The notes under the pieces were generated by a model that was given only the letters and a program-made list of their open reading frames with translations, had not been told where the DNA came from and searched no databases. From positions 1 through 64,000 of the forward strand of contig CAMAFY010000008.1 of the NCBI GenBank assembly GCA_945833885.1: a stretch of 64,000 bases of DNA. Reading direction: 5' to 3'. Numbering within the stretch: the stretch's first letter is position 1; every line of letters begins with the position of its first letter. The DNA comes from an uncultured Bacteroidales bacterium (GTDB taxonomy: Bacteria; Bacteroidota; Bacteroidia; Bacteroidales; Bacteroidaceae). Positions 8,066 to 61,834 of the stretch are shown here, piece after piece. The position numbers and the translations under genes were made by a program.

Positions 8066-8241
8066 CCAACGTTTTCGTTAAGCCAAATGAGCAGATTGTA
8101 AGCAGTTGAAAACTGTTTACGTTATGCCATGGCGAGAAAACGAAGGATGAAATCCAACGTTTTCGTTAAGCCAGATGAGCAGATTGTAAGCAGTTGAAAA
8201 CTGTTTACGTTATGACATGGCGAGAAAACGAAGGATGAAAT
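8066..8241. repeat. 88-bp tandem duplication (4 x 22 bp)
   Basis: Copy 1 (8066-8153) and copy 2 (8154-8241) are nearly identical, differing at a few bases; the first five bases of a third copy follow. Each copy contains a hairpin (GTAAGCAGTT, GAA, AACTGTTTAC; one mismatch). The period is exactly four times the 22-bp unit found in other gaps. Confidence 0.9.
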
Positions 8242-8369
8242 CCAACTCATCCTATGCAAAACTCGCCCTAAAAAAGTTGAGGAAGGGCATGACTTATTGC
8301 GGTAATTCACTCAGCGCCATTACCTTTTACCATAATAAGGTGAAGAGCATAGTTGGCATTTTCCGCTAA
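8217..8369 (+). CDS. Possible small basic protein, 50 aa
   Basis: ATG at 8217 opens a 50-codon frame beginning MARKRRMKSNSSYAKLALKK, with about a quarter Lys/Arg. The first ten codons also occur in the upstream duplication copy (ATG at 8129), where the frame diverges after MKSN and stops at 8197. This fits a small gene whose 5' end was duplicated, or chance. No family is recognised. The match of the start to the duplicated segment and the upstream TATCTTTGC box are the only support. Confidence 0.2.
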   Translation: MARKRRMKSNSSYAKLALKKLRKGMTYCGNSLSAITFYHNKVKSIVGIFR

Positions 8370-8429
8370 CACAGGGTTAAAGGTTGTCGCTTTTTGGGGG
8401 TTGAAAATGTAAAATTCGTAAAAATACAC

Positions 8430-8438
8430 TATATTTGC
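8430..8438 (+). promoter_or_regulatory. Probable efp promoter -7 box TATATTTGC
   Basis: An exact TAnnTTTGC match 234 bp before the efp start. The -33 region is poor. Transcription from here would put the five-unit 22-bp array (8518-8627) inside the efp 5' leader. Confidence 0.6.
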
Positions 8439-8517
8439 ACGCGCTAATGATGGGTACTTCTTGTTTGACGCGGCACAACAGTCTCCACCGGACGGCATTC
8501 CGGCGCTGGAACGTCAA

Positions 8518-8627
8518 AAACTTTGAACCTGCAACAACGTGGACTTTGAGCCTGTGAGGTCAAAACTCTGAGCCACAATCTCAAAACTCTGAGCCGGAAA
8601 CGACGAAACTTTGAACCTGCACGACAA
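8518..8627. repeat. 22-bp array in efp leader, 5 units
   Basis: Five units of 22, 22, 21, 23 and 22 bp (110 bp in total) each contain a core AACTYTGARCC. The array ends 44 bp before the efp start codon. Confidence 0.85.
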
Positions 8628-8671
8628 AGGAACCCATTAGAAACGACACATAAACAATAAGATATACCTAT

Positions 8672-9238
8672 ATGATTAAATCTCAGGACATTAAGAAGGG
8701 TGTTTGCATCCGCATGGATGGCAAACTCTACTTCTGCATCGACTTCCTCCATGTTAAGCCCGGTAAGGGAAACACCATCATGCGCACCACCCTCAAGGAC
8801 GTTGTTTCGGGCCGTGTTCTCGAAAAGCGCTTCAACATTGGTGAGAGCCTTGAGGACGTTCGCGTTGAACGTCGCCCCTATCAGTACCTCTATCTCGAGG
8901 GCGAAGACTACATCTTCATGAACAACGAGACCTTCGAACAGGTGCCCATCGCCAAAGAACTCATCACCGGCGTGGCATATATGAAGGAAGGCGACACCGT
9001 AGATGTAGTCAGCGATGCCGACACCGAGACCATCCTCTACGCGGAAATGCCCGTGAAGACCGTGGTACGCATCACCTACACCGAACCCGGACTCAAGGGT
9101 GATACCGCAACAAACACCCTCAAGCCTGCAACCATCGAGACCGGTGCCGAGGTGCGTGTCCCCCTCTTTATTGAGGAAGGTGAACTCATCGAAATCGACA
9201 CCCGCGACGGTAGTTACCAGAACCGCGTGAAGGAATAA
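8672..9238 (+). CDS. efp: Translation elongation factor P
   Basis: At 188 aa it has the standard length. EF-P binds between the P and E sites of stalled ribosomes and speeds peptide-bond formation at polyproline stretches. The N-terminal KOW-like domain carries the modification loop HVKPGKGNT, with a lysine at the position that is modified in E. coli. Two OB-fold domains follow; the C-terminus ends GELIEIDTRDGSYQNRVKE, as in the family. Start 8672 is the only one that gives the canonical MIKSQDIKKG. The gene stands alone between a promoter-bearing leader and a strong terminator. Confidence 0.98.
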   Translation: MIKSQDIKKGVCIRMDGKLYFCIDFLHVKPGKGNTIMRTTLKDVVSGRVLEKRFNIGESLEDVRVERRPYQYLYLEGEDYIFMNNETFEQVPIAKELITGVAYMKEGDTVDVVSDADTETILYAEMPVKTVVRITYTEPGLKGDTATNTLKPATIETGAEVRVPLFIEEGELIEIDTRDGSYQNRVKE

Positions 9239-9299
9239 TCCGACATTCACGACTCGGAAATCAAACGTTGTTTTCCGAATCTTCCCCCCAACACACATA

Positions 9300-9373
9300 A
9301 AACGAGCGAAATCAAGCAACATTCCTCTCCCGCATAAGGGGGAAAGGAGTGGCTTGTTTTCGCTCGTTTTTTT
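9300..9373 (+). terminator. efp terminator
   Basis: A long stem starts with AACGAGCGAAA and closes with TTTTCGCTCGTT, with inner pairing (CTCTCCC with GGGGGA), and ends in seven T. Confidence 0.9.
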
Positions 9374-9518
9374 GGCTTCTTACGGTACGTTGCAGGCGCA
9401 TTCCACCGACTGACATTGGATGTTTCCGGGCCTTATTGCCAAATAAAAGTCTATGAATAAGGGAATACCATTTCCCACACGATTATACCCTCAAGCTTTA
9501 TTTGCCGAAAGGAGAGCA

Positions 9519-9628
9519 TCAAAAAAAGATAAAGCATAATTCAAAAGAAGGACAAACACACCTCAAAAGAAGACAAAACATCATCCAGACAAAAGATAAG
9601 CGCAACCATCAAAAGTGGAATAGACATC
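9519..9628. repeat. 22-bp degenerate array, 5 units
   Basis: Five consecutive 22-bp units are anchored on TCAAAAGAAG-like A-rich starts; units 2 and 3 are the most alike. It lies in the gap between convergent efp and the minus-strand gene ending at 9851. Confidence 0.7.
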
Positions 9629-9781: not shown

Positions 9782-9850
9782 GAGTATGGATGTGCGCGAA
9801 AGGGAGAAACCTTTGGAGAACGGGGGGGATGGACAAGCGTACGGCGGGAA

Positions 9851-13520: not shown

Positions 13521-13745
13521 TCCGGAAAGCCCGAAGTATTTTCCAAACACCTTCAAAGGAGTTCTCCGGAAATTTCGGAAACCCTGGAAACTATCTTCAA
13601 GAGCCTTTCCGGACATCTGCAAAAACCCTGGCAAAGCATGCGGAAACGATGGCGGAAAAAGTGCGGAAGTTTCAAAGGAAAAGTTCCGATGTTCCCGCGT
13701 CAAAGTTCCGATGTTTCCATACGAAAGTTCCGATGTATTTCCGAA
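13521..13745. repeat. 22/44-bp array downstream of S46 peptidase
   Basis: 13521-13657 has a 44-bp (one 43-bp) period anchored on TCCGGA. 13658-13745 holds four exact 22-bp units starting AAAGTGCGGAAGTTT or AAAGTTCCGATGTTT. The array ends 31 bp beyond the S46 stop codon. Confidence 0.85.
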
Positions 13746-13776: not shown

Positions 13777-15915
13777 TCATTCTACAATCGTCATCTCGTC
13801 GACGGCATAAGTGGAGCCGCCATAAAGGTCGCAGATGAACAGGACATAGCGGATGTCGACGCAGATGCAGCGCTGCAAGGCAGGGTTGAAACGGAGGTCG
13901 CTCGACAGGCTTTCGATGTTGCCGTCGAAGGCAAGTCCCACGAGTTCTCCCTGAGCATTGAGGACGGCACTTCCGGAGTTTCCGCCGGTGATGTCGTTGT
14001 TCGTCAGGAAGCAGGTGGGAAGTTCGCCGTCAGCACCGGCGTAGCGCCCGTAGTTCTTTTCGAGATAAAACTTGCGCAAAGGTTCGTCGATGACGTAGTC
14101 AGGGTCCTTGGGATTTTCCTTTTCCATCATACCCTTGAGGTTGGTCTTCCAATCATAGTATACCGCATCGCGGGGTTTGTAGCCGCCGACGTGGCCATAC
14201 GTCATACGGAGTGTGAAGTTTGCGTCCGGACTCTTTGCCCAATCATACATCTCACACAGTCCGCGCACGTAGATTCTGCTGAGGTTTTTGTTCTCCACGC
14301 TGTAACGCTTGGCCATTTCATTGTACGTGGCGTCGCAGAAGCGGAAGATTTCGCGCATGTGTACAACAAACGGCTCGGCATCAAAGGCGGCAAGCGAGCA
14401 GGTGTCAATGAACTCCTCGAGGGTCTTGCGGCGTGCGAATACGGAATTGTGGTACAACTCGTGGTAATATGCCTTGAAATCCTCCAACGTCTTCCCTTCC
14501 GCGAAGGCAGGTTGCGCCTGCAGACGGTGGTGTTTTACCCAATAAGGTACGAGGATGTTCATCTTCTGTTCATCGTAAACCAGGTCGACCTTGCCGATTT
14601 TCTCGGTATAGGCGTTGAGGAACTCCTTACGTGCGCGCTCCAGATCCTTACCTTCCTTCAAGGCATTGCGGAAGGCGCGGAGGTCGCTGCGCCTCATTCC
14701 CATGCTCTGTGCCGCGAAAACATAGTCGAAAAGGTTCCTGTCGAAGATGGAATCCTTGTAGGTCTTCACGCAATTCTCAATACGGTCGATGATGTCGGCG
14801 TAGTCAGCGTCGGCGGATTGTGCGGCAAATTGGCGGAAAGCCTCCTCCTCGCGGCTCTTGATATCAAGGAGCCCTGTGGTGCGGACACTGGCGTTCATGC
14901 CGCCGAAGTTCTTGACGACATTACCCAAAGACATGTAGTCATCGGCATATTTCAGGGCAAGTTCGGGGTCGGAATCCATCTGTTGCTTCATGAAGTTCAG
15001 TTCTGCCTCTCCCGCCATGTTGATGGGTTCGTTGACAGATTCGCAACGCATCTCCACCTGTGCCCGCGTAAGGTAGCGGCTTGTGCTGCCCGGGAAGCCC
15101 ATAATCATGGTATAATCGTCTTTTTCTACGCCTTTCAGACTCACGTTCAGCCACTTCTTGCATTGGAGAGGCACGTTTTCCTCGCAGAAGTCCGAAGGTT
15201 TGCCCTCGGAATCGCCGTAGATTCGGAACAAAGCAAAGTCACAATTATGACGAGGCCAAATCCAATTATCCTGATTAAAGCCATATTGACCTATCTGCAT
15301 CGGAGGATTGACCACCAAACGTACGTCGGTGTACTGCTGTTCGTAGAAGGCGTAGAACTGATTGCCGCCGAAATAGGGGACGATGCGGAGGTTCATGTTC
15401 TTTTCCTTTGCCAGTCCGCTCTTCTTCATCAGGCGTTCCTCAATCTTTCCGAGGAAATCGCCGCTCTGCATGGTGAAGGCATCGACCTTTTCCTTGCGCG
15501 CCACACGCTCCACTTCAGCGGTGACGTCGACGATACGTACGACGAAGGTGAAGGTAAGTCCGGGACACGGCACTTCCTCCTCCTGCGATTTGGCGAAGAA
15601 ACCTTCGTAGAGATAATTGTGGTCCATGGTGGAAATCTCATGGACATAGGAGAAACCGCAGTGGTTGTTCGTCATGACGAGTCCCTTGCTGCTGACCAAT
15701 TCTCCGGTACATCCGTTTCCGAAGATGCCGATAACGTCACGCAACGACGGAGAGTTCTCATTATAGAGTTGCTCTACCGGCATTTTTAGACCGGCTTTCC
15801 GGAGAGAGTCTACGAGATGCTGCTGTTCCATGAGTTTCAACAGCCACATTCCCTCATCGGCCCGTGCGCCCATCGGGGCAAGAAGAACGAGAAGGGCGAG
15901 AAGAATTTTTTTCAT
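13777..15915 (-). CDS. S46 family dipeptidyl-peptidase, DPP7-like
   Basis: A periplasmic or surface serine exopeptidase that removes dipeptides from the N-terminus of peptides; these enzymes feed amino-acid fermentation. At 712 aa it is of normal length and starts with a signal peptide (MKKILLALLVLLAPMGARA). The chymotrypsin-like catalytic residues are seen as the His in MTNNHCGFSY and the Ser in TGGNSGSAVLNAQGELVG. Eighteen residues after that Ser the sequence reads FDGN; a Gly at this place is associated with hydrophobic P1 specificity (DPP7), while DPP11 has Arg. Its 5' flank is one of the longest 22-bp arrays, starting at the start codon itself. Confidence 0.92.
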   Translation of the reverse strand: MKKILLALLVLLAPMGARADEGMWLLKLMEQQHLVDSLRKAGLKMPVEQLYNENSPSLRDVIGIFGNGCTGELVSSKGLVMTNNHCGFSYVHEISTMDHNYLYEGFFAKSQEEEVPCPGLTFTFVVRIVDVTAEVERVARKEKVDAFTMQSGDFLGKIEERLMKKSGLAKEKNMNLRIVPYFGGNQFYAFYEQQYTDVRLVVNPPMQIGQYGFNQDNWIWPRHNCDFALFRIYGDSEGKPSDFCEENVPLQCKKWLNVSLKGVEKDDYTMIMGFPGSTSRYLTRAQVEMRCESVNEPINMAGEAELNFMKQQMDSDPELALKYADDYMSLGNVVKNFGGMNASVRTTGLLDIKSREEEAFRQFAAQSADADYADIIDRIENCVKTYKDSIFDRNLFDYVFAAQSMGMRRSDLRAFRNALKEGKDLERARKEFLNAYTEKIGKVDLVYDEQKMNILVPYWVKHHRLQAQPAFAEGKTLEDFKAYYHELYHNSVFARRKTLEEFIDTCSLAAFDAEPFVVHMREIFRFCDATYNEMAKRYSVENKNLSRIYVRGLCEMYDWAKSPDANFTLRMTYGHVGGYKPRDAVYYDWKTNLKGMMEKENPKDPDYVIDEPLRKFYLEKNYGRYAGADGELPTCFLTNNDITGGNSGSAVLNAQGELVGLAFDGNIESLSSDLRFNPALQRCICVDIRYVLFICDLYGGSTYAVDEMTIVE

Positions 15916-16217
15916 ATTCCTTGAAAATGCTTTGAATAATCCTAATATATGTTTTGAATGTTCCTGATAAATGGCCTGAATGCGTTTTATCGATGTTTTG
16001 AATGCACCCTATCCATGTATCGTACGCGCGCCTGTTACGCTTTGAACGCGCCCTGTCTGTGTTCAGGTAACGAATCTGTTACGCTTTGAACGCGCTTTAT
16101 GGATGCTTGGGGAAATCCTCGCGAATGCTTTGGATATCCTCCGTGAATGTCGGGAAAAGGCCTTTATGTATGTTGGGGATTTCCTTTACAGATATTGGAG
16201 GATATACCTGAAAACAC
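15908..16217. repeat. 22-bp array upstream of DPP7-like gene, ~14 units
   Basis: About 14 units of 22 bp (two or three of 23) run from the start-codon region of the peptidase to near the DUF2027 gene. Most contain TTTGAA or TTGG near the start and end in ATG or ACG. Units at 16040 and 16084 are close copies (CTTTGAACGCG). Confidence 0.85.
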
Positions 16218-17433: not shown

Positions 17434-17561
17434 GTGTTTATGCTGTAGTTTTCTCACCGTTTTCCGCGAAAATCTCACGAATAATCGAAGCGTTTTTGGA
17501 GGAAGAACGGTTGTATCTTACCAGATTTCACGCCTGTTTTTTAGAAAAAATATGACGATTT

Positions 17562-17801
17562 TTCACGAGAAAAGCAGTAATTTTCAACCTATTCTTGCGT
17601 TAATTCTCACGAAAAATGCGGATTTTTTCAACCATATTTCACGTCTTTTTTCACGATAAACGTGGTGATTTCACGGAAAAATCTGCTTGTTTTTTTACGA
17701 AAAACAGGACAATTTTCGCAGAAAAACGCAGTGATTTCCCCAGAAATGCGTGGTGATTTTCGCAGAAAAAAGCGGTGACATTCGCGGAAACGCGTGGTGT
17801 A
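17562..17801. repeat. 22-bp array between DUF2027 and DUF349 genes
   Basis: From 17670 to 17801 six units are exactly 22 bp, anchored on TTTCGCAGAAA or TTCACGGAAA and ending in GTGGTGAT-like sequence. 17562-17669 is a more degenerate continuation (20-35 bp between TTCACG anchors). Confidence 0.75.
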
Positions 17802-17809
17802 TTTTACTT

Positions 17810-17845
17810 AAAAGAAGGAGCCAACTGCCGTCAACTCCTTCTTTT
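17810..17845 (-). terminator. Terminator of the DUF349 gene
   Basis: An 11-bp stem AAAAGAAGGAG with CTCCTTCTTTT lies 120 bp after the stop codon; the minus-strand 3' side is T-rich. The 22-bp array begins 9 bp beyond it. Confidence 0.7.
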
Positions 17846-20280: not shown

Positions 20281-20368
20281 AAAGTGCCGCACTTTGATGC
20301 CGGAAGTTCCGAACTTTGAAGGGGAAAGTTCCGAGGTTTTCAACGGAAAGTGCCGCACTTTCCAGCGG
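20281..20368. repeat. 22-bp palindromic-core array, 4 units
   Basis: Four exact 22-bp units have cores AAAGTGCCGCACTTT, GAAGTTCCGAACTTT, AAAGTTCCGAGGTTT and AAAGTGCCGCACTTT, each followed by a different 7-bp linker. Confidence 0.9.
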
Positions 20369-20510
20369 CGCCGTCCGAGGGCTTTGCATGAAGCGCCGGC
20401 ACCCTGCAAACGATGGGCGGAAGAGTATGGAAAAACGGATGGAATTCTGCATGGGCGACAACAGGAATCCGCATGAGAAATGCCTGAAATCCGTATACGG
20501 AATTTCGTGA

Positions 20511-20666
20511 CCGTACTGGAAATATTCAGAAAGATTCCGAAGGATATATAAACGGTTTCCAGAGGGTACAGAAATGGTTTCCGGAGGATATCCAAACTTT
20601 TTTTTCGACGGATACCATCAATGTCCCCCAAAGATATACAAAGCGTTTCCGCAGGCCGTCCTCACT
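20511..20666. repeat. 22-bp array, 7 units, upstream part of corA 3' gap
   Basis: The units are anchored on GTTTCC/GATTCC plus GAGGRTA. All are 22 bp except one of 24 bp that contains a T8 run. The unit sequence is unrelated to the palindromic array 150 bp away. Confidence 0.75.
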
Positions 20667-22622: not shown

Positions 22623-22754
22623 GATGGCATCATAAAGGTAATCCATCACGTCAAGAAAGGATATCCGATGGCATCGTAAGACCATTCCAACGGCATTTTG
22701 TGGAATTCCCGATGCGTTTAGAAGGGATATCCGATGGCAAAATGGTAGGCCATG
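22623..22754. repeat. 22-bp array overlapping the 3' end of tamL, 6 units
   Basis: Six units of exactly 22 bp start GATGGCA (or a variant) and mostly end in ATATCC or ATTCC. The fifth unit contains the tamL stop codon and last codons, and the sixth is wholly coding, so the array runs from the gene end outwards. Confidence 0.8.
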
Positions 22755-25078
22755 CCATCGCGGAAGCGCTCGAAATTGTAGAATCCTCCGCGGTTGGTGG
22801 TGTAAGGGGCGTGAAGTCCGATGCCGACATCAAAGCGCAGGACGAGAAAGTCGAGGTCGTAGCGGATGCCGGCTCCGGTGCCGAGGGCGATGCGACGGAG
22901 GTTGCGGGCGGAAAGTTCGGCATCGGGGCGCAGGGCGTCGCGCTTCATCAGCCAGACATTGCCGGCATCGAGGAAGAGGGCGCCGTGAAGTCCGCCGAAA
23001 AGATGGGCACGAAGTTCCACATTCCCCTCCAATTTGAAGTCACCGGTCTGGTCGATATAGGAATATCTGCTGTTCGGCGAGCGGTAACCTCCGGGACCTG
23101 CCGTCCTCACCGTAAAGGCTCTGATGGAGTTTGCTCCGCCGATGTAGAACTGTTCGGCGTAGGGCGCGCTCTCATTGTCGCCATAATTGTAGATAATTCC
23201 GGCAAAAGCGCGGGTGGCGACCTTGAAACGCTGGTTGAGAAGATGGGTATAATGCACCTCGGCCGTGGCTTTCACGAACTGTGCGAAGCGGCTTCCGAAG
23301 ATTCTTCGCGGCATATTCTTGTCGTGATGCGGATAAACGAGGCAGTGAATGCCGTCGAAGATGTTGCCCGCCTCCTTAACCGTACCCTGAAACCACAGCG
23401 AACGCTGCTGGCGGGCGGGAGGTGAATAGGTGAAAACATAACTCATGGAGGGGACAAAGACGTTGCGCGTCGTGGCATAGATGGCAGGATTTGCCTGACT
23501 GATGGAGTCGAACGTGGCGGTAGTGCTGAGCAATTTGTAATAACTCAGGTCAATCAACGTCCATTCATGTTGGACTTTTCCGGCACTTCCTGCGGAAACG
23601 GCACGCGGTTGCCAGGCATAAACCACACTGCCACCGAAGTCGAGCATACGGAAAAATCCGGAACGGTTCTTCATATTCGCCTCAACCTCGAAGCGCGTGG
23701 TCGCAGGAAAGCGCAGACGACGTTTGGAAACGAAGGGGAAGACAAAGCGTGGAATCTCGAAATTCAACGCCGAACCGACCTCGAAACTGTTGAGCATGCT
23801 GTTGCCACCTTTGCGATGTCGGCCCAGTTGCCACTCATAACTTCCGAAAATGTTCCATGCTACGGTCTCGCCACCTCGGAAGGCGTTGCGTTTTGCAAGT
23901 TCATATTTCACGCCAGGACCAATCTGTTGGTTCGATTTCAGCGTAGCATTCACCTCGAACGACGAATCATAGGGCTTGCCAAGCCGCGCATTGATGTAGA
24001 CATCAAGGGTGTCGCAGCCGGGAATGCTGTCGTGTGGGACGTAATTGATGTCGATTGACGAGAGGATTCCCATAGCCGAGAGTTTGGAAACCGTGTTCTT
24101 CTGGTCGGAAAGCGTGTAAAGATGTCCCGGACGATGCAGGATGGCGGAACGCCACAGACGGGGTTTCAGGGGGATTTCCTCCGCGCCTTTCCACAAATAG
24201 GTCGTGCCACGCCGCTTCATGCTCCGCGGTTCAAGGTCGAGGGAATCGCTCTTGTCGGCAGAACCTCCGATATTTATATAGGTGTGTCCGATGTACCAGG
24301 GTCGGCGTGCGGCGGTTTCCACCTCGCCACGCGGCAAAACGCGCAACTGCACCTTGCCCGGCTGCATCAAAGTGTCGGCCTGGAAGGTGGCATAGGCGGG
24401 ATTCCAATAGAAATATCCGTTCTCGCGGAGGAGATTTCCCAGACGTTCCTGCTCGGCATTGAGGGAGATGACGCTGAAAGGCATGCCGCGCCGGAGGAGG
24501 CGCTCCGCAGAATGGACGGCAAAGATGGAATCGGGACCGGTGCCGAAACTGCGGTATTCCACACTATCAAGGGTAAAAAGGGGACCGGTATGCACGTCAT
24601 AGGCAAGACGAGCCTTCTTCGGATGGGAGGTTTCCACGACACTATACCCCACACTACCCCGGAAAAAACCATAATTTCGCAGGGTGTTGCCCGCCACCTT
24701 CACGCGGGTTTCGGGTACAACTGTGGAAATCAGCACCGGAGGTTCGCTGAAATGTTTGAACATCCAGCGGCCAAACCGGCTCTCGCTGTCGGCATAACGG
24801 TTGTAGATTCTCAGCCGCAGTTTGAAAGGTTGCGTGATGGACGAACTGCCAAAGAGCGAGCCGTTGGGGGCATAGGCCAAAGCGGCGTCCACCTCTTCTT
24901 TGGCAGTCTGGTAGGCAACCTGCGCAGTCTTGTCCTTTTCCTCAGCGGCCTCGCGATGATATGCCGTACTCTTGATGCCCAGATACAGTTGTTCGCCGTC
25001 GGAAATCTTTTCCGTCGTCGAGCAACCTCCCAGGATAAGGACGGCAAGCATAAGCAGGATGATGGTGAAACTACGCAT
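22718..25078 (-). CDS. TamL, lipoprotein BamA/TamA-family outer membrane protein
   Basis: A 786-aa Omp85-superfamily protein with a lipoprotein signal: MRSFTIILLMLAVLILGGCS, with the lipid-modified Cys at 19. POTRA-like modules follow (about 100-370). The last 400 residues form a 16-strand beta-barrel ending in Phe (HFAIGYPF), the usual C-terminal signal for barrel assembly. A TamA with a lipidated N-terminus is characteristic of Bacteroidota (TamL). It lies downstream of tamB on the same strand and should work with it in moving or inserting envelope components (phospholipid transport and barrel assembly are both proposed for TAM). Both gene ends blend into 22-bp arrays. Confidence 0.88.
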   Translation of the reverse strand: MRSFTIILLMLAVLILGGCSTTEKISDGEQLYLGIKSTAYHREAAEEKDKTAQVAYQTAKEEVDAALAYAPNGSLFGSSSITQPFKLRLRIYNRYADSESRFGRWMFKHFSEPPVLISTVVPETRVKVAGNTLRNYGFFRGSVGYSVVETSHPKKARLAYDVHTGPLFTLDSVEYRSFGTGPDSIFAVHSAERLLRRGMPFSVISLNAEQERLGNLLRENGYFYWNPAYATFQADTLMQPGKVQLRVLPRGEVETAARRPWYIGHTYINIGGSADKSDSLDLEPRSMKRRGTTYLWKGAEEIPLKPRLWRSAILHRPGHLYTLSDQKNTVSKLSAMGILSSIDINYVPHDSIPGCDTLDVYINARLGKPYDSSFEVNATLKSNQQIGPGVKYELAKRNAFRGGETVAWNIFGSYEWQLGRHRKGGNSMLNSFEVGSALNFEIPRFVFPFVSKRRLRFPATTRFEVEANMKNRSGFFRMLDFGGSVVYAWQPRAVSAGSAGKVQHEWTLIDLSYYKLLSTTATFDSISQANPAIYATTRNVFVPSMSYVFTYSPPARQQRSLWFQGTVKEAGNIFDGIHCLVYPHHDKNMPRRIFGSRFAQFVKATAEVHYTHLLNQRFKVATRAFAGIIYNYGDNESAPYAEQFYIGGANSIRAFTVRTAGPGGYRSPNSRYSYIDQTGDFKLEGNVELRAHLFGGLHGALFLDAGNVWLMKRDALRPDAELSARNLRRIALGTGAGIRYDLDFLVLRFDVGIGLHAPYTTNRGGFYNFERFRDGMAYHFAIGYPF

Positions 25079-25242
25079 ATATAAAGGAGGAACTATGGAC
25101 GTATGATGGGGAAACTATGGACGTTTGATGAAGAAATTATGGGTGTATGATGGGGAAACTGCGGGAACAAAAAAGGAAACACAAAAATAATGAGGCTGAA
25201 CTGCGGATATATGATGGCGGAACCACGCATAAACGTAAGTAA
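25069..25242. repeat. 22-bp array at the tamL start codon
   Basis: Unit 0 (25069-25090) holds the tamL start codon region. Three close 22-bp units follow (AACTATGGACGTATGATGGG-like), then a 42-bp diverged stretch and two more units (25199, 25221) back in register. Confidence 0.75.
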
Positions 25243-25264
25243 GGAGAGCAAGGAGGTGAAGGGC

Positions 25265-28200
25265 TTACTTCCGACGTCGGAAGAGGAAAAGTTCGCCCAG
25301 GCGGTCGGTCTTGCGGCGGAGGACGAGACCGGCACCGGTCTTCATCATCGTGCCTTCCAACGGATCGTGTGCCGCACGGTCGTAGAAAATGCGGACATAG
25401 CGGGTCCCGCTCTTGTCGAGACGGTATTCCAGACTGATATTGTCAATGAACGATGCCGCGGAGTTCTGGGCATCGGCACCGGACTGCACGCTTCCGCCAA
25501 TCTTCACACTGATGCGGTCGTCGAGGAAACGCTTGGAAAACTGGAAGGAATAGTCGGTCGTTGCGGCACCGGTTTCCGAAGTTCCGTTCTCCAGACCAAA
25601 ACTTACATCGATGGTGGACAATGCTTTTCCGGCAATGTTCTGGATTTCGCTTTGCAGGAAGGCGTTCAGGGCGTTCGAAGCCTTGATGCCCGAGGTCAGA
25701 TTGTCCGTCACATACATGCCGGTGGTCAGAAGTGCCACCGCCGTCTTGTTGCGGTCTTCGGCACTCATCGACATCAATTCGTTCTGGACACTCAGGTCTT
25801 CGGGGGCCTCAATGGTAAATGCCAGCCCCATATCTTGCAGCGTTCTCGATATCTCCACTCCGACGTTGAAGTTCACTTTCCGCTGCACATCGTTCTCCGT
25901 CACCACGGCCCGCGTCTTCTCAACCGCGCGAATGGAGAGGGTAGGATTCAGCATATCGCCGGTAAATTCGGCGTAACTTCCCTGCTCCAACTGGAAGGTT
26001 TTGAGGGGAATCACCGGCAATTCGTAGTTCATCTCGCCCTCCTCGATGGTGTAACGTCCCGTCAAACGTGTCACACCCTGCTGCGTCATGCGCAGGGTAA
26101 GGTCGCCTCCTCCGCGCAGATCGACGTAACTTTCGCCATTGCGCGACAGCAAACAATGGAACTTTGCGCCCTGGTCGATGTGGATTCCAAAGGACATGTC
26201 GATGCTCATTCCCGTAGTCGCCACCTCAGGTTCCGGCACATAGGTGGTGTCTTCAAAACTGGTAAAGGTGACAAGGTCCGACAAACGGTCCTCGACGGTA
26301 AGGGGAGAGTCGGCGAGAATATACGTGGCATCGGTGCCGGCAAGCAGACCTATGTCGCCGCGGACACTGAGGTTTGTGAGCGAACCTCGGGCGGTACCGT
26401 TGAAATCCGCCAGCACCTTTCCGTAGATCAGCGATGTTTTCTGCCGCTCGCTGTTGATGACCTCAAAGTCGGTGGCGCGTAAATCGAAGTCGAGGAGTAT
26501 GTTTTCGAGGTCGGCAATATCGATGTTTCCATTCAGTTTCAGCGACGTCTTTCCAGACGTCAGGAGGTAATCCGCGAAATTCAGCCGCGAATCGGCAAAG
26601 GTGATGGGGCGTTCGTCCATCAGGAAGTCGATGCCGTAGACCGGACTGTACAGATGTGCCTCGTTGAGGTCGAGGGTTCCGCTGAGCCGGGGTTTGCTGT
26701 CTGTGCCTTCAAGTGCAAAGTCGCCCGCCACGAATCCGCGGAGTCCGAAGCCGGTGTCCGCCAGAAAAGCGTTGAGAGGTTCGAGGGGGAAGCCGTCAAG
26801 ATTGGCGTTTCCCTGATAATGTCCGTCACGGTCGTTGTAGACTACCGAACATGTTCCCACATCCTTGCCGTCGAAATTGATGAAGGCATCGGCATAATGC
26901 TCGCCGCCAGCCTTGGGAAGATAGATGATTTCCGCACCCACGTTGCCGATGCGTTGGCCTTCGTAGGTCAAATCACGGACGTTGACGGTGGCCATGGCGG
27001 ACAATCCGAGCGAATCGCCGTGCTCCTCGGTCACGTGTACGTCACCCTCCGCCACGCCTTCCAATCTTGGCATGTAAGGCAGCACGTCGCAGAGTGCCGA
27101 AAGGTCGATGGAAGTGAGGGAAAGTGTGATGTCGTTCTGCGTCTCATCGGCAGGAACGCTATAAATGGCAAGGCCCATTCCCATGCTGTCGACAAGTTGC
27201 ACGTTGGCGTTTATCATACCTTTGCGGTTGATGCTGACGCCATTGTCGTCGTTGACGGTGAAGGAATGATAGGCAATGGTCGGATTTTCGGGGCGGATAC
27301 TGAAACGCACGCCCTCGTCGTCGCCCATCAACTCGCCCCGAAGTGCAAGGTCTATACCCGTGCGGCCCGCCTCATCGGTGAAGAGGAGCGATGCCAGGGC
27401 CTCCTCCTCACGGATATGCGCGTTGAGTTGTGCCGTAAAACGATGGGGATTGCTCTTACGGAAATTATGGAATGTGGTGAGGAAATTCAGTCCGTCATCG
27501 TCATGTGTCACCACACAGGATACGGTGTCGAGTTGGAGCGCCTCCGTGGTTACGGTGCCCATCGTCGCCAATCCGTGTAGTCCGTTCGCGCTGTCGGTCT
27601 GCAGTTGTACGGCTATTCCGGAGAGATTCGTGCCTTTCAGCGCCAGAAATTTCGACAACGGGTTGTCCGTTCCTGCGTGGAATGCCAGGGAGGTTACGGG
27701 CAAAAGGTGGCGGAGGGTGTCGTTCTCGAACTTACGGTTCTGCATTTGCCGCGACATTTCGCGACCGAACAGACTGACGGCGCCCGACAAGCGGCGCCAA
27801 TCGCCGGCACCCTGGAAGTCGAAGTGCAGGTCGCCGGTGGAAAGGTTCGCCGTGGTGGCGGTGGAAGACGAGGATGCGGCGAAGGAAATGTCGCGGAACA
27901 TGGCGGAGCGTGTCTCGGACGTCAGGTAATTGTCCACGATGTTTCCGTCGATTTCAAAGGCATTGAAGTCCTTGCTGGCACGGCCTTTCAGGCTCAACAT
28001 GGTGTGGAGTTTCAGCAGTTTCTCCGTATTCGCCAACTGTTGGAGGTCGATTTCGTCGCCAATGACCGTTGCTTCCACGTTGTAAACGCTGTCGACGATG
28101 GCGCGGACATCGGCACTGACACCGCCAATGGGGCTTGCCACATCGAGCAGGGCGCGGCCCTTTCCCTGGGAGAGCGTGGCGGAAAGGCGTAGGGAATCCA

Positions 28201-29725: not shown

Positions 29726-29810
29726 AAGTATTAAAAATAAAAGAATAGGAATTCAGAAAAACGGTGGGGATTTTTCTGAAAAAAACATCATTTCGTGCGA
29801 CGGGAACCGG

Positions 29811-30227
29811 TCACCCGTTCCGTTTCCAGCGCAGCATAAGGCTGTTCTTCCCGACGAATTCGCCGGCGATGTGGAGGTCGTAATCGAGTGTCAGCCTTCC
29901 GCCCTCCGCATCATATTCACACGAAAAGCGGTGCGTGCGTACCGAAATGTCGATGATTCCCGCCGGAGTGCGGTAGAAAGCGTCCGTCATCTTCGACACT
30001 TCGAAGGTCATTCGGCTGTCCACCTGCCCGGAACGTCGGAGGAAAATCCTTGAAGGCGTGCCTCCGAGAACGGTCTCGCCGTGGTTTTCCGGGTCGAAGT
30101 ACCTCACATTCCAATCCCCATCGTCGCGGATTGAGACGATGGCTTGGGCGGTATGCGCTATCTTGTCGCGAAGTCCGTCGGCGGTGACGCTGCGCAACTC
30201 CGATTGCAATGTGGCTTTATAGAGCAT
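29811..30227 (-). CDS. DUF1934 (YwiB-like) calycin-type beta-barrel protein
   Basis: At 138 aa it has the length of the YwiB family. The pattern is IFLRRSG, MTFEVSKMTDAFYRTPAGIIDISVRTHRF, and GGRLTLDYDLHIAGEFVGKNSLMLRWK, matching the beta-barrel signature of DUF1934. The biochemical role is unknown. It is 86 bp upstream of tamB on the same strand and may be co-transcribed. Confidence 0.65.
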   Translation of the reverse strand: MLYKATLQSELRSVTADGLRDKIAHTAQAIVSIRDDGDWNVRYFDPENHGETVLGGTPSRIFLRRSGQVDSRMTFEVSKMTDAFYRTPAGIIDISVRTHRFSCEYDAEGGRLTLDYDLHIAGEFVGKNSLMLRWKRNG

Positions 30228-30272
30228 TTATTATAGAATTTAATTAGGGAAACCGCGGTGTTTCACGCAAAA

Positions 30273-30448
30273 AAAGTACGGAACTTTCTGCAAGAAACAT
30301 CGGAACTTTCTATGGAAAAGTGCGGAACTTCTTGAAGGAAAATGCGGCACTTTCTACAAGAATCCTCGGCACCCTGTGAAGAGGGCTATGGCACCCTGTG
30401 AAGAGGGCTACGGCACCCTATGAAGAGGGCTACGGCACCTCAGCACGG
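30273..30448. repeat. 22-bp array, 8 units, grading from palindromic to non-palindromic
   Basis: Eight consecutive exact 22-bp units. Units 1-4 have the AAAGTGCGGAACTTT-type core, unit 5 (AATCCTCGGCACCCT) is intermediate, and units 6-8 are near-identical GGGCTAYGGCACCC units. It ends 8 bp from the C10 protease stop codon. Confidence 0.92.
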
Positions 30449-35684: not shown

Positions 35685-35724
35685 GTCCCCGCCGACATCA
35701 CCATCATGTCGGCGGGGACTTTTT
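35685..35724 (+). terminator. pepD terminator
   Basis: GTCCCCGCCGACAT pairs perfectly with ATGTCGGCGGGGAC and is followed by TTTTT. Confidence 0.93.
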
Positions 35725-35730
35725 CATGCC

Positions 35731-35796
35731 TTTTGCAAACACTTTTTATACCTGTTGCAAACGCCTTTTATACCTGTTGCAAAGCATCGTCATAGA
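35731..35796. repeat. 22-bp array, 3 units, after pepD
   Basis: Three units of exactly 22 bp with TTGCAAA and TTTTATACC at fixed phase begin 6 bp after the terminator T-run. Confidence 0.8.
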
Positions 35797-35832: not shown

Positions 35833-36234
35833 CAAAACGTCAATTCCTTGAAACCTTCTGTTTTTACAAGGTATCATAACACAAATTAACAAAACATCAA
35901 TTTACGTTTTATCAAAAACACCGTCGCAAATTGCGGAAGGAATTAACAAGACGCGGAGGAAAAGAAGACCTGCCACACCATAGTCCGAACCCTTCACCTC
36001 CGAGCATCAGGAAGGGAACTTGGGCGAAACGGGTGAAAGGGGATGCCATCCGCCCGTGGGATGATTCGAAAACCGCCATTGCAAGTTCAGCACAAAAAAG
36101 GTCATGCCATGGTGAGACAGGAGAAAACGGCGGAGGATTTGCCCGAAACGGCTTGGAATCGGGGAAACGAAGGTTTTGGATGTCGCGAAGAGGGGGCAAA
36201 TGTCGCAGAAAAAGGCATTGAAGGTGTGCTGAGA

Positions 36235-36322
36235 AAAGTGCGGATGTTTGCAGGAAAAAATGCGGAACTTTCGACTGCAAAATGCGGCACTTCATGCTGA
36301 AAACCTCCGTGGTTTTCATCGC
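36235..36322. repeat. 22-bp palindromic-core array, 4 units
   Basis: Four exact 22-bp units: AAAGTGCGGATGTTT, AAAATGCGGAACTTT, AAAATGCGGCACTTC and AAACCTCCGTGGTTT, each plus a 7-bp linker. It sits in the 1.2-kb gap between convergent pepD and the beta-galactosidase gene; 35833-36234 shows nothing else recognisable. Confidence 0.88.
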
Positions 36323-36446: not shown

Positions 36447-36666
36447 GTACAAGGAAAACGAACGGACTGTACTGCGAAGGTAAACGCATTATGACGGAGA
36501 TAGGGTTGGAGGATAGAAAGAATACTGAAGCGTTTTGTGGAAGAAACGATTAAAGCGTACAAGGAAAACAAGTGGACTGTACTGCGAAAGTAAACGCATT
36601 ATGACGGAGATAGGCTTGGAGGACACAAAGAATACTGAAGCGTTTTGTGGGAAAACGCGGGAAGTT
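36447..36666. repeat. 110-bp tandem duplication (5 x 22 bp)
   Basis: Copy 1 starts at 36447 and copy 2 at 36557. They agree at all but a handful of positions over the first 100 bp. No reading frame or known element is recognised in the unit. Confidence 0.92.
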
Positions 36667-36798: not shown

Positions 36799-40144
<3,346 letters not shown>

Positions 40145-42309: not shown

Positions 42310-42485
42310 CAAAGGTTTACACCCAGAAGTGCAATGGTTTGCAATGGAAAAACCAAAGGTTTGCAATGGAAAGACCAAAGGTTTGCAATGGAAAGACCAA
42401 AGGTTTGCAACGGAAAGACCAAAGGTTTGCAATGGAAAGGCCAAAGGTTTGCAATGGAAAAACCAAAGGTTTGCTACGGGGGTAT
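42310..42485. repeat. 22-bp array, 8 units, highly uniform
   Basis: Eight exact 22-bp units with consensus start CAAAGGTTTGCAATGGAAAG; units 3 and 4 are identical and others differ by 1-3 bases. The outer units are diverged. The array starts 56 bp upstream of the nucleotidyltransferase start codon. Confidence 0.97.
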
Positions 42486-44676: not shown

Positions 44677-44803
44677 AGGAAGATAGTATTAAGTAGGGAA
44701 TTTTAAGGTGGGCGTTTCTGCATTCCACCATTGTTTTTACGTGAGTTCTATAAATCACCTCCGTGATTTTCCATTGTACGTTGCGGGGGATTTCACATTA
44801 TTT

Positions 44804-44943
44804 ACAAGATGGCCTCAACTTGTTCACAAGATTTCTTCACCTTTTTATATAAGATATTTTCGCCTTGTTCACATGATTGTCCCAACTCATGTACAAGATA
44901 ATTTTACCTTATATACAAGATGCTTTCGCCTTGTTTACAATGG
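44804..44943. repeat. 22-bp array, 6 units, AT-rich
   Basis: Six units (one of 23 bp) start ACAAGAT or ATAAGAT and end in CTTGTTC-like sequence, so ACAAG and CTTGT form short inverted repeats across unit borders. It lies between the rsmI 3' end and the coiled-coil lipoprotein's 5' end. Confidence 0.88.
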
Positions 44944-46923: not shown

Positions 46924-47088
46924 TTTTCGTCCTCTTTTTTCCAATTTTCTCCTGTTTTTTCGTCGTTCTTCGCTCAATATTAGCCGTTTATGCTATCCGA
47001 ACTTGACGCATTTCACTATCCGCAAATCCGGCACTTGCGTTCTGAAGGCTCGTGGACTTGTGAAAGTATGTTCCGAAGTTTGCTGGAA

Positions 47089-47242
47089 AAAGTGCGGAAC
47101 TTTTTGATGTAAAGTGCGGAAGTTTACGATGCAAAGTGCGGAACTTTTTAACGCAAAATACGGAGGTTTTTAATGCAAAGCACGGAGGTTTACGGTGCAA
47201 AGCACGGAAGTTTTCGATGCAAAGTGCAGCAGCGTGTGCGGA
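47089..47242. repeat. 22-bp palindromic-core array, 7 units
   Basis: Seven exact 22-bp units with cores such as AAAGTGCGGAACTTT, AAAGTGCGGAAGTTT, AAAATACGGAGGTTT and AAAGCACGGAGGTTT, and linkers often ending in GATGC or AATGC. The array starts about 125 bp after the stop of the gene at 47367. The gap 46924-47088 shows nothing else. Confidence 0.95.
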
Positions 47243-53918: not shown

Positions 53919-53980
53919 GCGGAAAACCGGCAGAAAGGACTGAGCCTGCCACCAAAAGGCGCGTATGACCTTACAGGAAC

Positions 53981-54156
53981 TTTCCGGACCGTCCGCGAAA
54001 AGGCATAAACGATTTCGTGAAGAATTTCCGGACATTCCGCGAAAAGGCATAAACGATTTCGTGAAGGCTTTCCGGACCGTCCGCGAAAAAGTATAAACGA
54101 TTTCGAGAAGAATTTCCGGACATTCCGCGAAAAGGGTGCGGATGCCTTTGCGGCAA
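53981..54156. repeat. 44-bp tandem repeat (2 x 22 bp), 4 units
   Basis: Units start at 53981, 54025, 54069 and 54113, exactly 44 bp apart. Each has TTTCCGGACCGTCCGCGAAA (or ATTCCG variant) followed by a 22-mer with ATAAACGATTTCGTGAAG. Units 1/3 and 2/4 share variants, suggesting an 88-bp step. Confidence 0.95.
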
Positions 54157-54199
54157 TGTTCCGGGCCCTCCATAAAACCACACGGAAAAGCCGTGTGAA

Positions 54200-54287
54200 A
54201 AAGTGCCGCACTTTCCGCGAGAAAGTTCCGATGTTTCAAGGGGAAAGTTCCGATGTTTCCATGCCAAAGTGCGGAGGTTTTCCACAC
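54200..54287. repeat. 22-bp palindromic-core array, 4 units
   Basis: Four exact 22-bp units: AAAGTGCCGCACTTT, AAAGTTCCGATGTTT (twice) and AAAGTGCGGAGGTTT, each with a 7-bp linker. It lies 44 bp after the 44-bp array, 178 bp before radA. Confidence 0.92.
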
Positions 54288-58912: not shown

Positions 58913-59138
58913 TCCCGACTTCGTCATTCTCCTCTCCCGGAAAATCACACTCCACTCTCCCCATCCTCTTTCCACAACGCACCGTCTCCTCGGCAACAAT
59001 CCCTATGCCATCGTGCAGAAAATTCAGACAACGTTTGAAGAAATTGTGCATGACGCCGGCCGTTAGCCCAACGACACTATGCCTTGCTTGCCACAAACAC
59101 ACACGGCATCGGCAACAAGGCAAAAAAGGATTCGCAAC

Positions 59139-59257
59139 AAAACCGTAAAGGAATTGCTGCGAAAAGTACAGGGAACTTCCGGGAAATGTACAGGAAAGTT
59201 CCAAGAAACGTATAGCGAAATGCCGAGAAAATTATAGGAAAAATGCCGAGAAAGAGG
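59139..59257. repeat. 22-bp array, 5 units, abutting the comF-like stop codon
   Basis: Units at 59139, 59161, 59183, 59205 and 59227 (the last of 23 bp) start GAAAAGTACAGG or a variant; a further partial unit runs into the stop codon at 59258. Confidence 0.82.
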
Positions 59258-60106
59258 TTATGACAACGGACGATGCTGGGAATTCAGGAAGTCTTCGTTG
59301 CTGCAGGTGGCGTCGTCAAGATGAAGTTTCTCGGGGGTGACTACGCCCATCGGCGAACGTCCGGAGATGGCCAATGAGACAACCGTGAAGGTAATCTCGC
59401 CGGCACGCTCGGGAACTGCCTGCAGAATGGCACGCGCACAGTTGATGACGCTGGCGCCAGTGGTGATGACGTCGTCGACAATGGCAATGTTCAGCGTCGC
59501 CTTTCCCCGACGGTCCTTCTCCGCAAGCGCCTTCAGAATGGCACGACGGCGGCCCTTGAAGGCACCGACAACGTTCTCCCGACGCTCGGAAGCCTGAAGG
59601 CGGGTCTGCGAACAGGTGTATTTGTGGCGCCGGACAAGGTTGGAAATGGGGATGCCTGTGCGCGCTTCGATGCCGCGGACGAGGAGGTCGCTCTGGTTGT
59701 ATGTGCGGCGAAGGTGGCGCAAGATGTGGATGGGCATGGGCTGAAGCAGGTCAACATCATCGAAAAGTCCGCACGATTGGGCATCGTCGGCGATGAAAGT
59801 GCCTGCCCAGATGCCGAGGGCGCGCGCCCGACGATACTTGATGCTGGTGATGATGTGCTGCGACCCCTCACCCTTTATATAATAAAATAAGGAGTAGGCG
59901 CGGCAGATGGGGATGGAACCTTCAAACCTCAGGCATATCTTGTTCCAAGGAAGCAGCCGCTCCTCCACGTAGGGAAGCCCCAACAGACAGCGCGAACAGA
60001 CGAACTCTGAGGCGGTGATTTCGCCACAAATCTCGCAGCGCCCCCCGACAATGATGGAGAGCGCCAACCTGAAATAGTACGATAAAGGGCGGTCGAGGAA
60101 CGGCAT
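59258..60106 (-). CDS. ComF-family phosphoribosyltransferase-like protein
   Basis: A 282-aa protein with an N-terminal zinc-binding double-Cys motif (CEICGEITASEFVCSRC) and a type I phosphoribosyltransferase fold with the PRPP loop IAIVDDVITTGASV. ComF proteins are linked to natural transformation in several phyla; in Bacteroidota the role is not established. It is longer than the usual ~240 aa because of an extended C-terminus. It follows purA by 78 bp on the same strand, separated by a hairpin. Confidence 0.9.
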   Translation of the reverse strand: MPFLDRPLSYYFRLALSIIVGGRCEICGEITASEFVCSRCLLGLPYVEERLLPWNKICLRFEGSIPICRAYSLFYYIKGEGSQHIITSIKYRRARALGIWAGTFIADDAQSCGLFDDVDLLQPMPIHILRHLRRTYNQSDLLVRGIEARTGIPISNLVRRHKYTCSQTRLQASERRENVVGAFKGRRRAILKALAEKDRRGKATLNIAIVDDVITTGASVINCARAILQAVPERAGEITFTVVSLAISGRSPMGVVTPEKLHLDDATCSNEDFLNSQHRPLS

Positions 60107-60142
60107 GGTGTTTCAGGAAGTCCTGCACGGACAGACAAAGAC

Positions 60143-60175
60143 AAAGGGAGGAGGACAGAACGCCCTCCTCCCTTT
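60143..60175 (-). terminator. Hairpin after purA
   Basis: A perfect 12-bp stem AAAGGGAGGAGG with CCTCCTCCCTTT lies just after the purA stop; there is no long T run on the minus strand, so termination may be partial, allowing read-through to the comF-like gene. Confidence 0.65.
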
Positions 60176-60184
60176 ATGGTGGAA

Positions 60185-61453
60185 TTATCGGATGATGGTA
60201 GCCTCGCGGTCAGGACTTACGCTGACAATGCTGATGCGGCATCCGGTCTTTTCTTCGAGATAGTCGATGTAACTCTTGAAGGCTGCGGGGAAATCCGCCT
60301 CACAACGCACCTCGGTGAGCGGTGTTTTCCATCCGGGAATGTCCTCATAAACGGCTTCCCAGCCCTCGGTGTCGTAAGGCATATCCGTGGTCTGCACGCC
60401 ATTCTTCTGATAAGCGACACAAGCCTTGATGGTGTCGAAGCCGTCAAGCACGTCACCTTTCATCATAACCAGGTCAGTTACACCGTTAATCATTATGGCA
60501 TAGCGCAGAGCGACCAAGTCAACCCAACCGCAACGGCGGTCACGTCCGGTGACGGCACCGTACTCATGACCGATGCGACGCAACTCATTGCCGGTCTCAT
60601 CGAAGAGTTCTACGGGGAAGGGACCGGAACCCACGCGGGTGGAATAGGCCTTGAAGATACCCCAAACGCGGTCAATCTTGTTGGGAGCCACGCCAAGTCC
60701 GGTGCAGACACCTCCGGCAGTGGTGCTGGAAGAACTGACAAACGGATAGGTACCATGGTCGATATCGAGGAGCGAGCCCTGGGCACCTTCCGCCAAAACG
60801 CTCTTGCCTTCGGCGAGGGCCTTGTTGATTTCGAACTCGGTGTCCGTAAGATGGAACTTGCGCATATAGTCGATTCCCTCGAGCCATGCGCGTTCTTCCT
60901 CGGCGATGTCGTAGTCGGTGAAGTGGAGGTCGCGGAGAATCTGCTCGTGACGTTCCTTCAAACGATAGTATTTCTCCAGGAAATTGTCCTGAATATCTCC
61001 GACGCGGAGGCCCACACGTGCGGCTTTGTCGGAATAGGTGGGACCGATTCCCTTACCGGTAGTTCCCACCTTGTCCTTGCCTTTTGCGGCCTCGTAGGCA
61101 CGGTCGAGCACACGATGGGTGGGAAGTATCAGATGTGCGCGGCGGCTGATGTGGAGACGTTCGGTCAGAGAATAGCCTGCCGCCTCAAGTTCATGCGCCT
61201 CCTTCATGAAAAGGTCGGGAGCAATGACGCAACCGTTGCCGATAATGTTCAACTTGCCTTCGTCGAAAATTCCGGAAGGAATGCTGCGAAGCACAAACTT
61301 TTTGCCTTCAAAGATGATGGTATGTCCGGCATTAGGACCACCGGCGAAACGGGCTACCACATCATAACGTGGGGTAAAATAGTCGACGACCTTTCCTTTT
61401 CCTTCGTCGCCAAACACGATGCCGAGCAGGGCATCGACCTTTCCTTTTGACAT
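60185..61453 (-). CDS. purA: Adenylosuccinate synthetase
   Basis: It catalyses IMP + Asp + GTP to adenylosuccinate, the first committed step to AMP. The start at 61453 (MSKGKVDALLGIVFGDEGKG) is chosen over 61507, giving 422 aa. The P-loop GDEGKGK with the catalytic Asp, GPNAGHTIIFEG with the catalytic His, and the IMP/GTP-binding segments (GTTGKGIGPTYSDK, TTAGGVCTGLG, TGRDRRCGW) are all present. It is preceded by an AGGTGG ... CCACCT hairpin and a uniform 22-bp array. Confidence 0.97.
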   Translation of the reverse strand: MSKGKVDALLGIVFGDEGKGKVVDYFTPRYDVVARFAGGPNAGHTIIFEGKKFVLRSIPSGIFDEGKLNIIGNGCVIAPDLFMKEAHELEAAGYSLTERLHISRRAHLILPTHRVLDRAYEAAKGKDKVGTTGKGIGPTYSDKAARVGLRVGDIQDNFLEKYYRLKERHEQILRDLHFTDYDIAEEERAWLEGIDYMRKFHLTDTEFEINKALAEGKSVLAEGAQGSLLDIDHGTYPFVSSSSTTAGGVCTGLGVAPNKIDRVWGIFKAYSTRVGSGPFPVELFDETGNELRRIGHEYGAVTGRDRRCGWVDLVALRYAIMINGVTDLVMMKGDVLDGFDTIKACVAYQKNGVQTTDMPYDTEGWEAVYEDIPGWKTPLTEVRCEADFPAAFKSYIDYLEEKTGCRISIVSVSPDREATIIR

Positions 61454-61658
61454 AACTCTCTGTTGATTGTATGTTAGGATTTTGCAGGTGGTGCTGTAAA
61501 TCGCCACCTAAAACTCTGATTATGCTTTATTCTTTTGGGAAGTTTCCCGATTGTTGTAGCGGCTGTCCGTGGCATATTCCCCGATGTTGCGGGGGACGCT
61601 TGTGGCGGAAATGCGGGGATTGCCGCCGGAACACGCCCCACCCAGAATTCATTTTCCG

Positions 61659-61834
61659 GATGTACGGACTGGCGTGAACGGATGTACGGACTGTCGTGAA
61701 CGGATGTACGGACTGTCGTGAACAAGTGTACGGACTGCCATGAACGGACAAACGGACTGCCAAGAACGGGTGTACGGACTGTCGTGAACAAGTGTACAGA
61801 CTGCCATGAACGGACGTACGAATTGTCGCGATCA
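61659..61834. repeat. 22-bp array, 8 units, uniform
   Basis: Eight exact 22-bp units with consensus GATGTACGGACTGTCGTGAA, differing by 1-6 bases. It fills the gap between divergent purA and the FAD oxidoreductase gene. Confidence 0.97.

Follow-up and report, generated by a model that had tools for sequence, protein, structure and literature searches.

Intergenic tandem arrays of constant period and variable sequence in a Bacteroidales genome: putative rows of binding sites for a dimeric DNA-binding protein

Iterons and operator arrays bound by dimeric proteins are known examples of dyad sites directly repeated at about two helical turns, and species-specific extragenic palindromes are known as repetitive extragenic palindromes (REP) and bacterial interspersed mosaic elements (BIME), with their RAYT transposase. 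Bacterial tandem repeats of constant length and variable sequence were reportedly treated by Subirana and Messeguer in J Bacteriol in 2020. Here we describe repeats of this kind in a stretch of 64,000 nucleotides (the window), which comprises bases 1-64000 of contig 8 in the genome assembly of an uncultured Bacteroidales bacterium (G000; 3.11 Mb, 89 contigs, 87% complete). They are intergenic head-to-tail arrays with a period of 22 bp, and part of them are built on a common dyad.

Satellites with a unit of constant size (20-23 nt in many groups of bacteria) and variable sequence have already been described, and protein polymerisation, stabilisation of the nucleoid or small RNAs were proposed for them, with a remark on two helical turns (Int J Mol Sci 2021, PMC8161180). 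The authors leave open how the length is held constant when the sequence is not. Porphyromonas gingivalis has 22-, 23- and 41-nt repeats as well as the BrickBuilt element, the 22-nt repeats being cited for strain W83 (PMC4596501). The terms Bacteroid, Prevotella and Porphyromonas are absent from the main text of the 2019 survey by Subirana and Messeguer, and our literature searches, limited to open-licence papers, found no Bacteroidales account of such arrays. The first-pass annotation of the window knew of no description of them in the group. The class of constant-size, variable-sequence repeats is published, as are the ideas of two turns and of a nucleoid protein (PMC8161180).

The arrays noticed in the window are real. 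Tandem Repeats Finder reports a period of 22, 44, 66, 88 or 110 bp in 29 of its 40 rows for the window. A lag scan was carried out on 464 kb of G000, made up of the window and 20 stretches of 20 kb each. It yielded 77 segments at lag 22, 65 at lag 44 and 36 at lag 66; the remaining lags between 10 and 70 gave 0-10 segments each, the largest being lag 21 (10), lags 12 and 45 (7 each) and lags 23 and 65 (6 each). The autocorrelation by lag that the first-pass annotation had suggested, separately for coding and noncoding DNA, gives 22, 44, 66, 88 and 110 as the top five lags of noncoding DNA, and a small excess at lag 22 in coding DNA (z 2.0 against lags not divisible by 3). After masking of repeats down to a score of 12, lag 22 is still the highest in noncoding DNA (0.2885, baseline 0.2587), followed by lags 10 and 11.

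We defined an array by a score of at least 18 and a lag of 22 or 44, and dropped rows below this score or without these lags. The G000 sample contains 89 such arrays spanning 10.9 kb, two of which abut the start of a sampled stretch. No array midpoint lies inside a called gene, and three arrays overlap a gene end by 12-24 bp (coding fraction 0.75). Of the gaps of at least 150 bp, those between codirectional genes carry arrays in 53 of 148 cases, convergent ones in 14 of 28 and divergent ones in 7 of 28; these counts are approximate because genes were called with a simple in-house caller. Arrays in codirectional gaps keep away from the downstream start, with 3 of 60 in the last fifth. Seventeen arrays lie in the window, and 16 of the 20 positions at which a 22-bp array had previously been noticed fall on one of them; positions 8518, 22623, 42605 and 43669 have only segments at lags 44-88, with scores of 14-20. 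Clustered regularly interspaced short palindromic repeats (CRISPR), in which repeats are parted by unique spacers of like length, had rightly been ruled out by layout, as the units follow each other head to tail.

It had also been held that the units are unrelated from gap to gap and that the length alone is kept. The sequence is indeed variable, but 38 of the 89 arrays contain at least two in-phase sites of a degenerate 15-bp dyad, AAANNNCNGNNNTTT, followed by a 7-bp spacer (hereafter the core). Dyad symmetry reaches a permutation p of at most 0.05 in 40 of the 89 arrays and of at most 0.01 in 29. A strict form of the core has 118 matches, 115 of them noncoding (0.15 expected in mononucleotide-shuffled noncoding DNA), and of its 71 spacings of no more than 400 bp, 70 are divisible by 22. 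Reduced to eight letters, the core has 186 sites in G000 (176 noncoding), and the spacings of 8-120 bp, counted from sites and not from repeats, are multiples of 22 in 98 of 99 cases. Tandem pairs with a 4-10 bp spacer number 293 genome-wide in the forward pattern against 2 in the reversed one; among the 39 forward pairs listed of these 293, the spacing is 22 in 38 and 23 in one. When one anchor site is omitted from each of the 41 arrays that have one, 141 further units still match the eight core letters at 0.82-0.96, and 84 pairs of neighbouring units agree at 0.67-0.93 in core columns versus 0.42-0.70 elsewhere. Spacers are 0.49 identical within arrays and 0.28 between arrays, with 0.25 expected by chance.

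The structure of the dyad was analysed in 143 core-like units of G000; 87 of 230 extracted units were set aside as not resembling the core. Half-sites on either side include AAAGTGC, AAAGTTC, AAACATC and AAACCTC. Neighbouring positions within a half covary (positions 3 and 4, z 20.9; positions -4 and -3, z 19.4), and mirror pairs reach z values from -0.4 to 5.1; for one listed pair z is meaningless, since the column is nearly invariant. In G007, a related genome, the motif is TAACCCT-AGGGTTA, with variants that are largely alike on both sides. Its own motif gives 18 of 18 short spacings as multiples of 22, and foreign motifs yield almost no sites.

We propose that each core array offers a row of sites to a putative dimeric DNA-binding protein whose half-site sequence drifts between species, a reading that in our judgement could equally well prove right or wrong. 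The unit would consist of a 14-15-bp dyad, i.e. two 7-bp half-sites, and a spacer, with centres 22 bp apart here and 21 bp apart in some species. Successive dimers would thus sit about two turns apart and might pack side by side, perhaps cooperatively. Arrays would be born locally by tandem duplication of gap sequence and enlarge by whole units, and selection would retain those in which both the sites and their spacing are right for the protein. The role is probably architectural (nucleoid, gap insulation) rather than one in promoter control. An architectural protein or a copying mechanism had been named as the possible cause at the outset, and the former is the best-supported class.

Comparison with related genomes recovers the same period with different sequence, as the first-pass annotation had suggested might be found. 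The number of arrays per 100 kb sampled is 19.2 in G000, 12.5 in G007, 5.5 in G161, 5.3 in G024, 5.0 in G083 (one array in 20 kb), 3.3 in G020, 3.0 in G010, 1.9 in G143 and 0.9 in G168. There are none in the samples of G004 (200 kb), G016 (80 kb), G022 (45 kb) and G104 (41 kb). Segments at lag 22 are likewise absent from the 200 kb of G004, which belongs to the same genus, and from a 185-kb pool of G005, G016 and G022 (same genus) and G026 (another family); 20 further same-genus samples (336 kb) have six, and 16 samples from other families (197 kb) have one. In 80 purA loci from related species (L001-L080, 1.27 Mb in total) we counted 50 segments at lag 22, 54 at lag 21 and 45 at lag 14. The excess at lag 14 suggests heptamer-based repeats in some of these species.

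The dyads themselves differ: AAAaTGAccACTTT in G161, ATTCGTCC..GGACGAAT in G143, ACAACCTAGGTTGT in G010 and TTCCAAGGCCTTGGAA-like in G024. A dyad z of at least 2 is found in 5 of 11 arrays of G161, 11 of 15 of G007, 2 of 3 of G143, 1 of 1 of G168, 3 of 3 of G010, 1 of 2 of G020, 3 of 3 of G024 and 0 of 1 of G083. The common motif is clearer in G007, where it anchors 14 of the 15 arrays, than in G000. For 25 further purA loci, 17 of 42 arrays have a dyad p of at most 0.05, versus 11% of 108 control pieces. Arrays of the same species are more alike than arrays of different species (0.49 vs 0.40), although 20 arrays drawn from G000 reach 0.42, and the window array at 47070-47227 was matched only in its own genome among 101 family genomes. 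In G012, C44:7200-7324 and C101:3-105 have period-22 units built on a further dyad, TTTAGTGCCATTAAA; the units are identical in the pairs listed and may represent a young array.

The length is not the same everywhere. Conservation of 22 bp, as first described, holds for G000, but in G140 and G142 the unit is nearly always 21 bp long, as it is for the main dyad of G083. Among the forward tandem pairs listed, the spacing is 21 in 23 of 26 for G140 and 7 of 9 for G142, and 22 in 6 of 6 for G161; G083 has 24 of 24 tandem pairs at 21, in the reversed core pattern. Noncoding segments at lags 21 and 22 number 7 and 2 in G140, 8 and 0 in G142, and 6 and 8 (about equal) in G083. G000 and G140 thus have the same core at 22 and 21 bp, respectively, and the arrays mostly lack a counterpart in the same gaps of the relatives compared, which points to a measure acting in trans and to rapid gain and loss of arrays. 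Side-by-side packing of a dimeric protein at about two turns would be the simplest ruler of this kind. That a fast-evolving dimeric chromosomal protein of the genus sets both motif and unit length in trans is possible, but we advance this only tentatively. The two-helical-turn measure proposed for the window fares less well there: with 10.5 bp to the turn, the longer duplications of 44, 66, 88 and 110 bp do not amount to a whole number of turns, so that a simple two-turn count agrees better with the 21-bp species than with G000.

Several observations weigh against a protein as the common cause. The core was discovered and tallied in one dataset, and 51 of the 89 arrays lack it at the same period, so a single sequence-specific protein cannot explain all arrays; to account for these 51, further proteins must be invoked, or else a copying step of equal length acting before selection. 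When one mismatch to the core is tolerated, spacings that are multiples of 22 number 170 of 253, and among eight short spacings from the G140 samples there is one of 64. Spacer identity is as high as 0.52 in the best array pairs, a few of which may thus be related by spread. Column heterogeneity is equally high in non-core and core arrays; the test was discarded, as it is inflated by the shared descent of units and does not separate descent from selection. The halves of the dyad are not strictly independent, since the cross-centre positions -5 and 1 covary in G000 (z 12.3) and mirror covariation exceeds that of adjacent positions in G007 (mean z 2.2 vs 0.7). AsnC and HU-HIG were considered as partners and rejected, because their copies do not track array density across genomes. 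Among the 14 genomes searched for it, the HU-HIG family has 30 matches in G083 versus 3-10 in the other 13.

Array-bearing gaps have grown. Their median length is 532 bp in G000 versus 94 bp in relatives (19 comparisons, 12 syntenic gaps), and for array-free gaps 122.5 versus 91.5 bp (44 comparisons, 36 gaps). The relatives are G161, G143, G168 and G022; some of their values are negative (to -98 bp), as unaligned gene ends were assumed to be full length. The gap around the array at 13657 measures 562 bp versus 27 bp in G143 and 46 bp in G161, where the counterpart of the gap with the array at 25059 is 14 bp long. Measured from one alignment end to the other, the window has about 540-580 bp before radA, compared with 18, 39 and 234 bp in L002, L003 and L001. 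The reverse is also found: a gap of about 32 bp in the window corresponds to about 396 bp, including a 22-bp array, in L002. The arrays at 15904 and 25059 start within the first codons of the adjacent genes and their units resemble those codons; in L002, the Dpp7 start itself is repeated in 23- and 21-bp steps (counted by eye). Either the gene start or the array unit may have come first.

Such units, resembling arbitrary gene starts, are what a ruler blind to sequence might leave behind. Replication or repair would duplicate DNA in steps of 22 bp, or of a 22-bp protein footprint, and the arrays would be neutral by-products. The coreless arrays fit this explanation, as do the 36 noncoding tandem duplications of period 30-400 bp in G000: in 28 the period is an exact multiple of 22, in 7 it misses such a multiple by one, and in one it is 63. 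Three 66-bp duplications lack internal 22-bp similarity (39991, L112:709 and L128:963), but in two of them the copy is incomplete, with 36 and 40 of the 66 bp. Three 88-bp units retain 44-bp similarity and may be old arrays, so the 66-bp cases alone stand for a quantised duplication without internal similarity. The 80 purA loci contain 34 noncoding duplications of at least 30 bp, of which only 2 are exact multiples of 22 and 7 more miss by one, which makes the multiples a feature of G000. A blind ruler also leaves unexplained why 38 arrays with mostly unrelated spacers share a dyad core, and why indels between sites are nearly absent at a spacer identity of about 0.5. We consider this explanation rather unlikely.

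A function at the RNA level, as rows of small hairpins or as small RNAs made from the arrays, appears improbable to us. The dyads could fold, the 52-nt satellites of B. coagulans are transcribed according to the authors of PMC8161180, and the distance from downstream starts in codirectional gaps would suit it. Against this, mirror positions in the core-like units covary less than neighbours within a half, and mismatches on the transcript strand do not favour G-T (29) over A-C (27), so the hairpin is unsupported in these units; the window holds one Rfam family at threshold, a tRNA. Half-site variants and mismatch types, as far as sequence comparison can tell, suit DNA sites of a dimeric protein better, less clearly so in G007.

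A mobile element that carries a minisatellite has a precedent in BrickBuilt, an intergenic 23-nt minisatellite within a miniature inverted-repeat transposable element (MITE) of P. gingivalis (PMC4596501), and REP with its RAYT transposase would be another type. We found no common leader or tail among 161 array flanks, so that shared MITE ends are unsupported. Fourteen cross-array flank pairs have E values up to 1e-3: eight are overlapping flanks of one gap, three (E 1e-7 to 2e-5) share three flanks, two of which reach into a neighbouring core array, and three stand at 7e-4. Spacers mostly unrelated between arrays and a single partial match to the Y1 transposase in the incomplete G000 assembly also speak against such an element and leave RAYT unsupported; we hold this origin to be very improbable. 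Duplication by Cas1, as in CRISPR adaptation, is barely credible: G000 has one cas1 match, but the arrays have no spacers and Cas1 does not track array density, being present in 9 of 14 genomes, including G004 and G104 without arrays in their samples, and not found in the array-bearing G010, G024, G143 and G168 (71-87% complete).

The features of the window are listed in the table. Its proteins include TamL, TamB, a Dpp7-like peptidase and a sorting domain of the type IX secretion system (T9SS), which together with the neighbours of purA assign the window to Bacteroidales. The genes for TamL, TamB and a DUF1934 protein are consecutive (22718-30227), with the array at 25059 between the first two and that at 30270 past the third. 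A 21-bp repeat at 33924-34058 lies within an open reading frame (32946-34070) and probably reflects a repeat in the encoded protein that has nothing to do with the 22-bp arrays. The view that no dispersed repeat is involved needs one qualification, as the 88-bp unit at 8061-8246 looks dispersed: judged by eye, it is similar, in reverse complement, to a unit with which another contig begins (C1:1-143). A search for inverted repeats in 8000-8320 alone found none.

Table. Tandem arrays and longer tandem duplications in the window (positions in the window; the last column names the program that reported the feature)
Position	Feature	Remarks	Reported by
8061..8246	88-bp (4x22) tandem duplication, probably dispersed element	outside the 89 arrays; 96% matches; similar unit at G000:C1:1-143	
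9519..9604	22-bp array	non-core	Tandem Repeats Finder, lag scan
13657..13736	22-bp array	core dyad (AAAGTTCCGATGTTT and similar)	lag scan
15904..16095	22-bp array	from start codon of Dpp7-like gene (13777-15915, -)	lag scan
17560..17813	22/44-bp array	TTTTCNCNGAAAA-like units	Tandem Repeats Finder, lag scan
20281..20380	22-bp array	core dyad AAAGTTCCGAACTTT / AAAGTGCCGCACTTT	lag scan
20522..20602	22-bp array	non-core; array calling ends it at 20590	lag scan
25059..25165	22-bp array	units like first codons of tamL (22718-25078, -)	lag scan
30270..30439	22/44-bp array	core dyads grading into second unit type	Tandem Repeats Finder, lag scan
35721..35783	22-bp array	non-core	Tandem Repeats Finder, lag scan
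36224..36303	22-bp array	core dyad	lag scan
36447..36650	110-bp (5x22) tandem duplication	outside the 89 arrays	Tandem Repeats Finder
39991..40137	66-bp (3x22) tandem duplication	no internal 22-bp similarity; outside the 89 arrays	Tandem Repeats Finder
42310..42479	22-bp array	near-alike units, non-core	Tandem Repeats Finder, lag scan
44793..44940	22-bp array	CTTGTNNACAAG-like units	lag scan
47070..47227	22/44-bp array	core dyad AAAGTGCGGAACTTT and similar	Tandem Repeats Finder, lag scan
53980..54135	44-bp array		Tandem Repeats Finder, lag scan
54197..54280	22-bp array	core dyad, upstream of radA	lag scan
59112..59242	22-bp array	degenerate	Tandem Repeats Finder, lag scan
61657..61835	22/66-bp array	between purA and next gene	Tandem Repeats Finder, lag scan

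With sites in pairs and a period that changes between 21 and 22 bp from species to species, the cause of the constant length becomes testable, and the motif, its half-site variants and the one-base difference in spacing between related species offer a direct way to seek the ruler. The gaps with arrays have also grown several-fold relative to related species. The closest described repeats are those of Subirana and Messeguer. The likeness covers constant unit size, several families per species, species specificity and noncoding location, and G000 has the constant unit within 20-23 nt, the variable species-specific sequence and the noncoding location. The described repeats also keep a short motif in most units of a species; in G000 the core occurs in 38 of the 89 arrays. 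Different here are the unit of 22 or 21 bp depending on the species (Bacillus units are 20-21 or 52 nt), the resolved dyad with half-site variants, the measured growth of syntenic gaps and the occurrence in Bacteroidales. BrickBuilt is also an intergenic minisatellite of near length, but it is 23 nt long and forms one sequence family at 19 loci with leader and tail ends; the arrays of G000 have neither a period of 23 nor a single sequence family, nor shared ends among the 161 flanks. Iterons and operator arrays differ in that the putative sites described here are spread over many dispersed chromosomal loci with a species-specific motif. REP and BIME share the extragenic location, the palindromes and the species specificity; the arrays differ from them in their fixed tandem period and in the lone partial Y1 match of G000.

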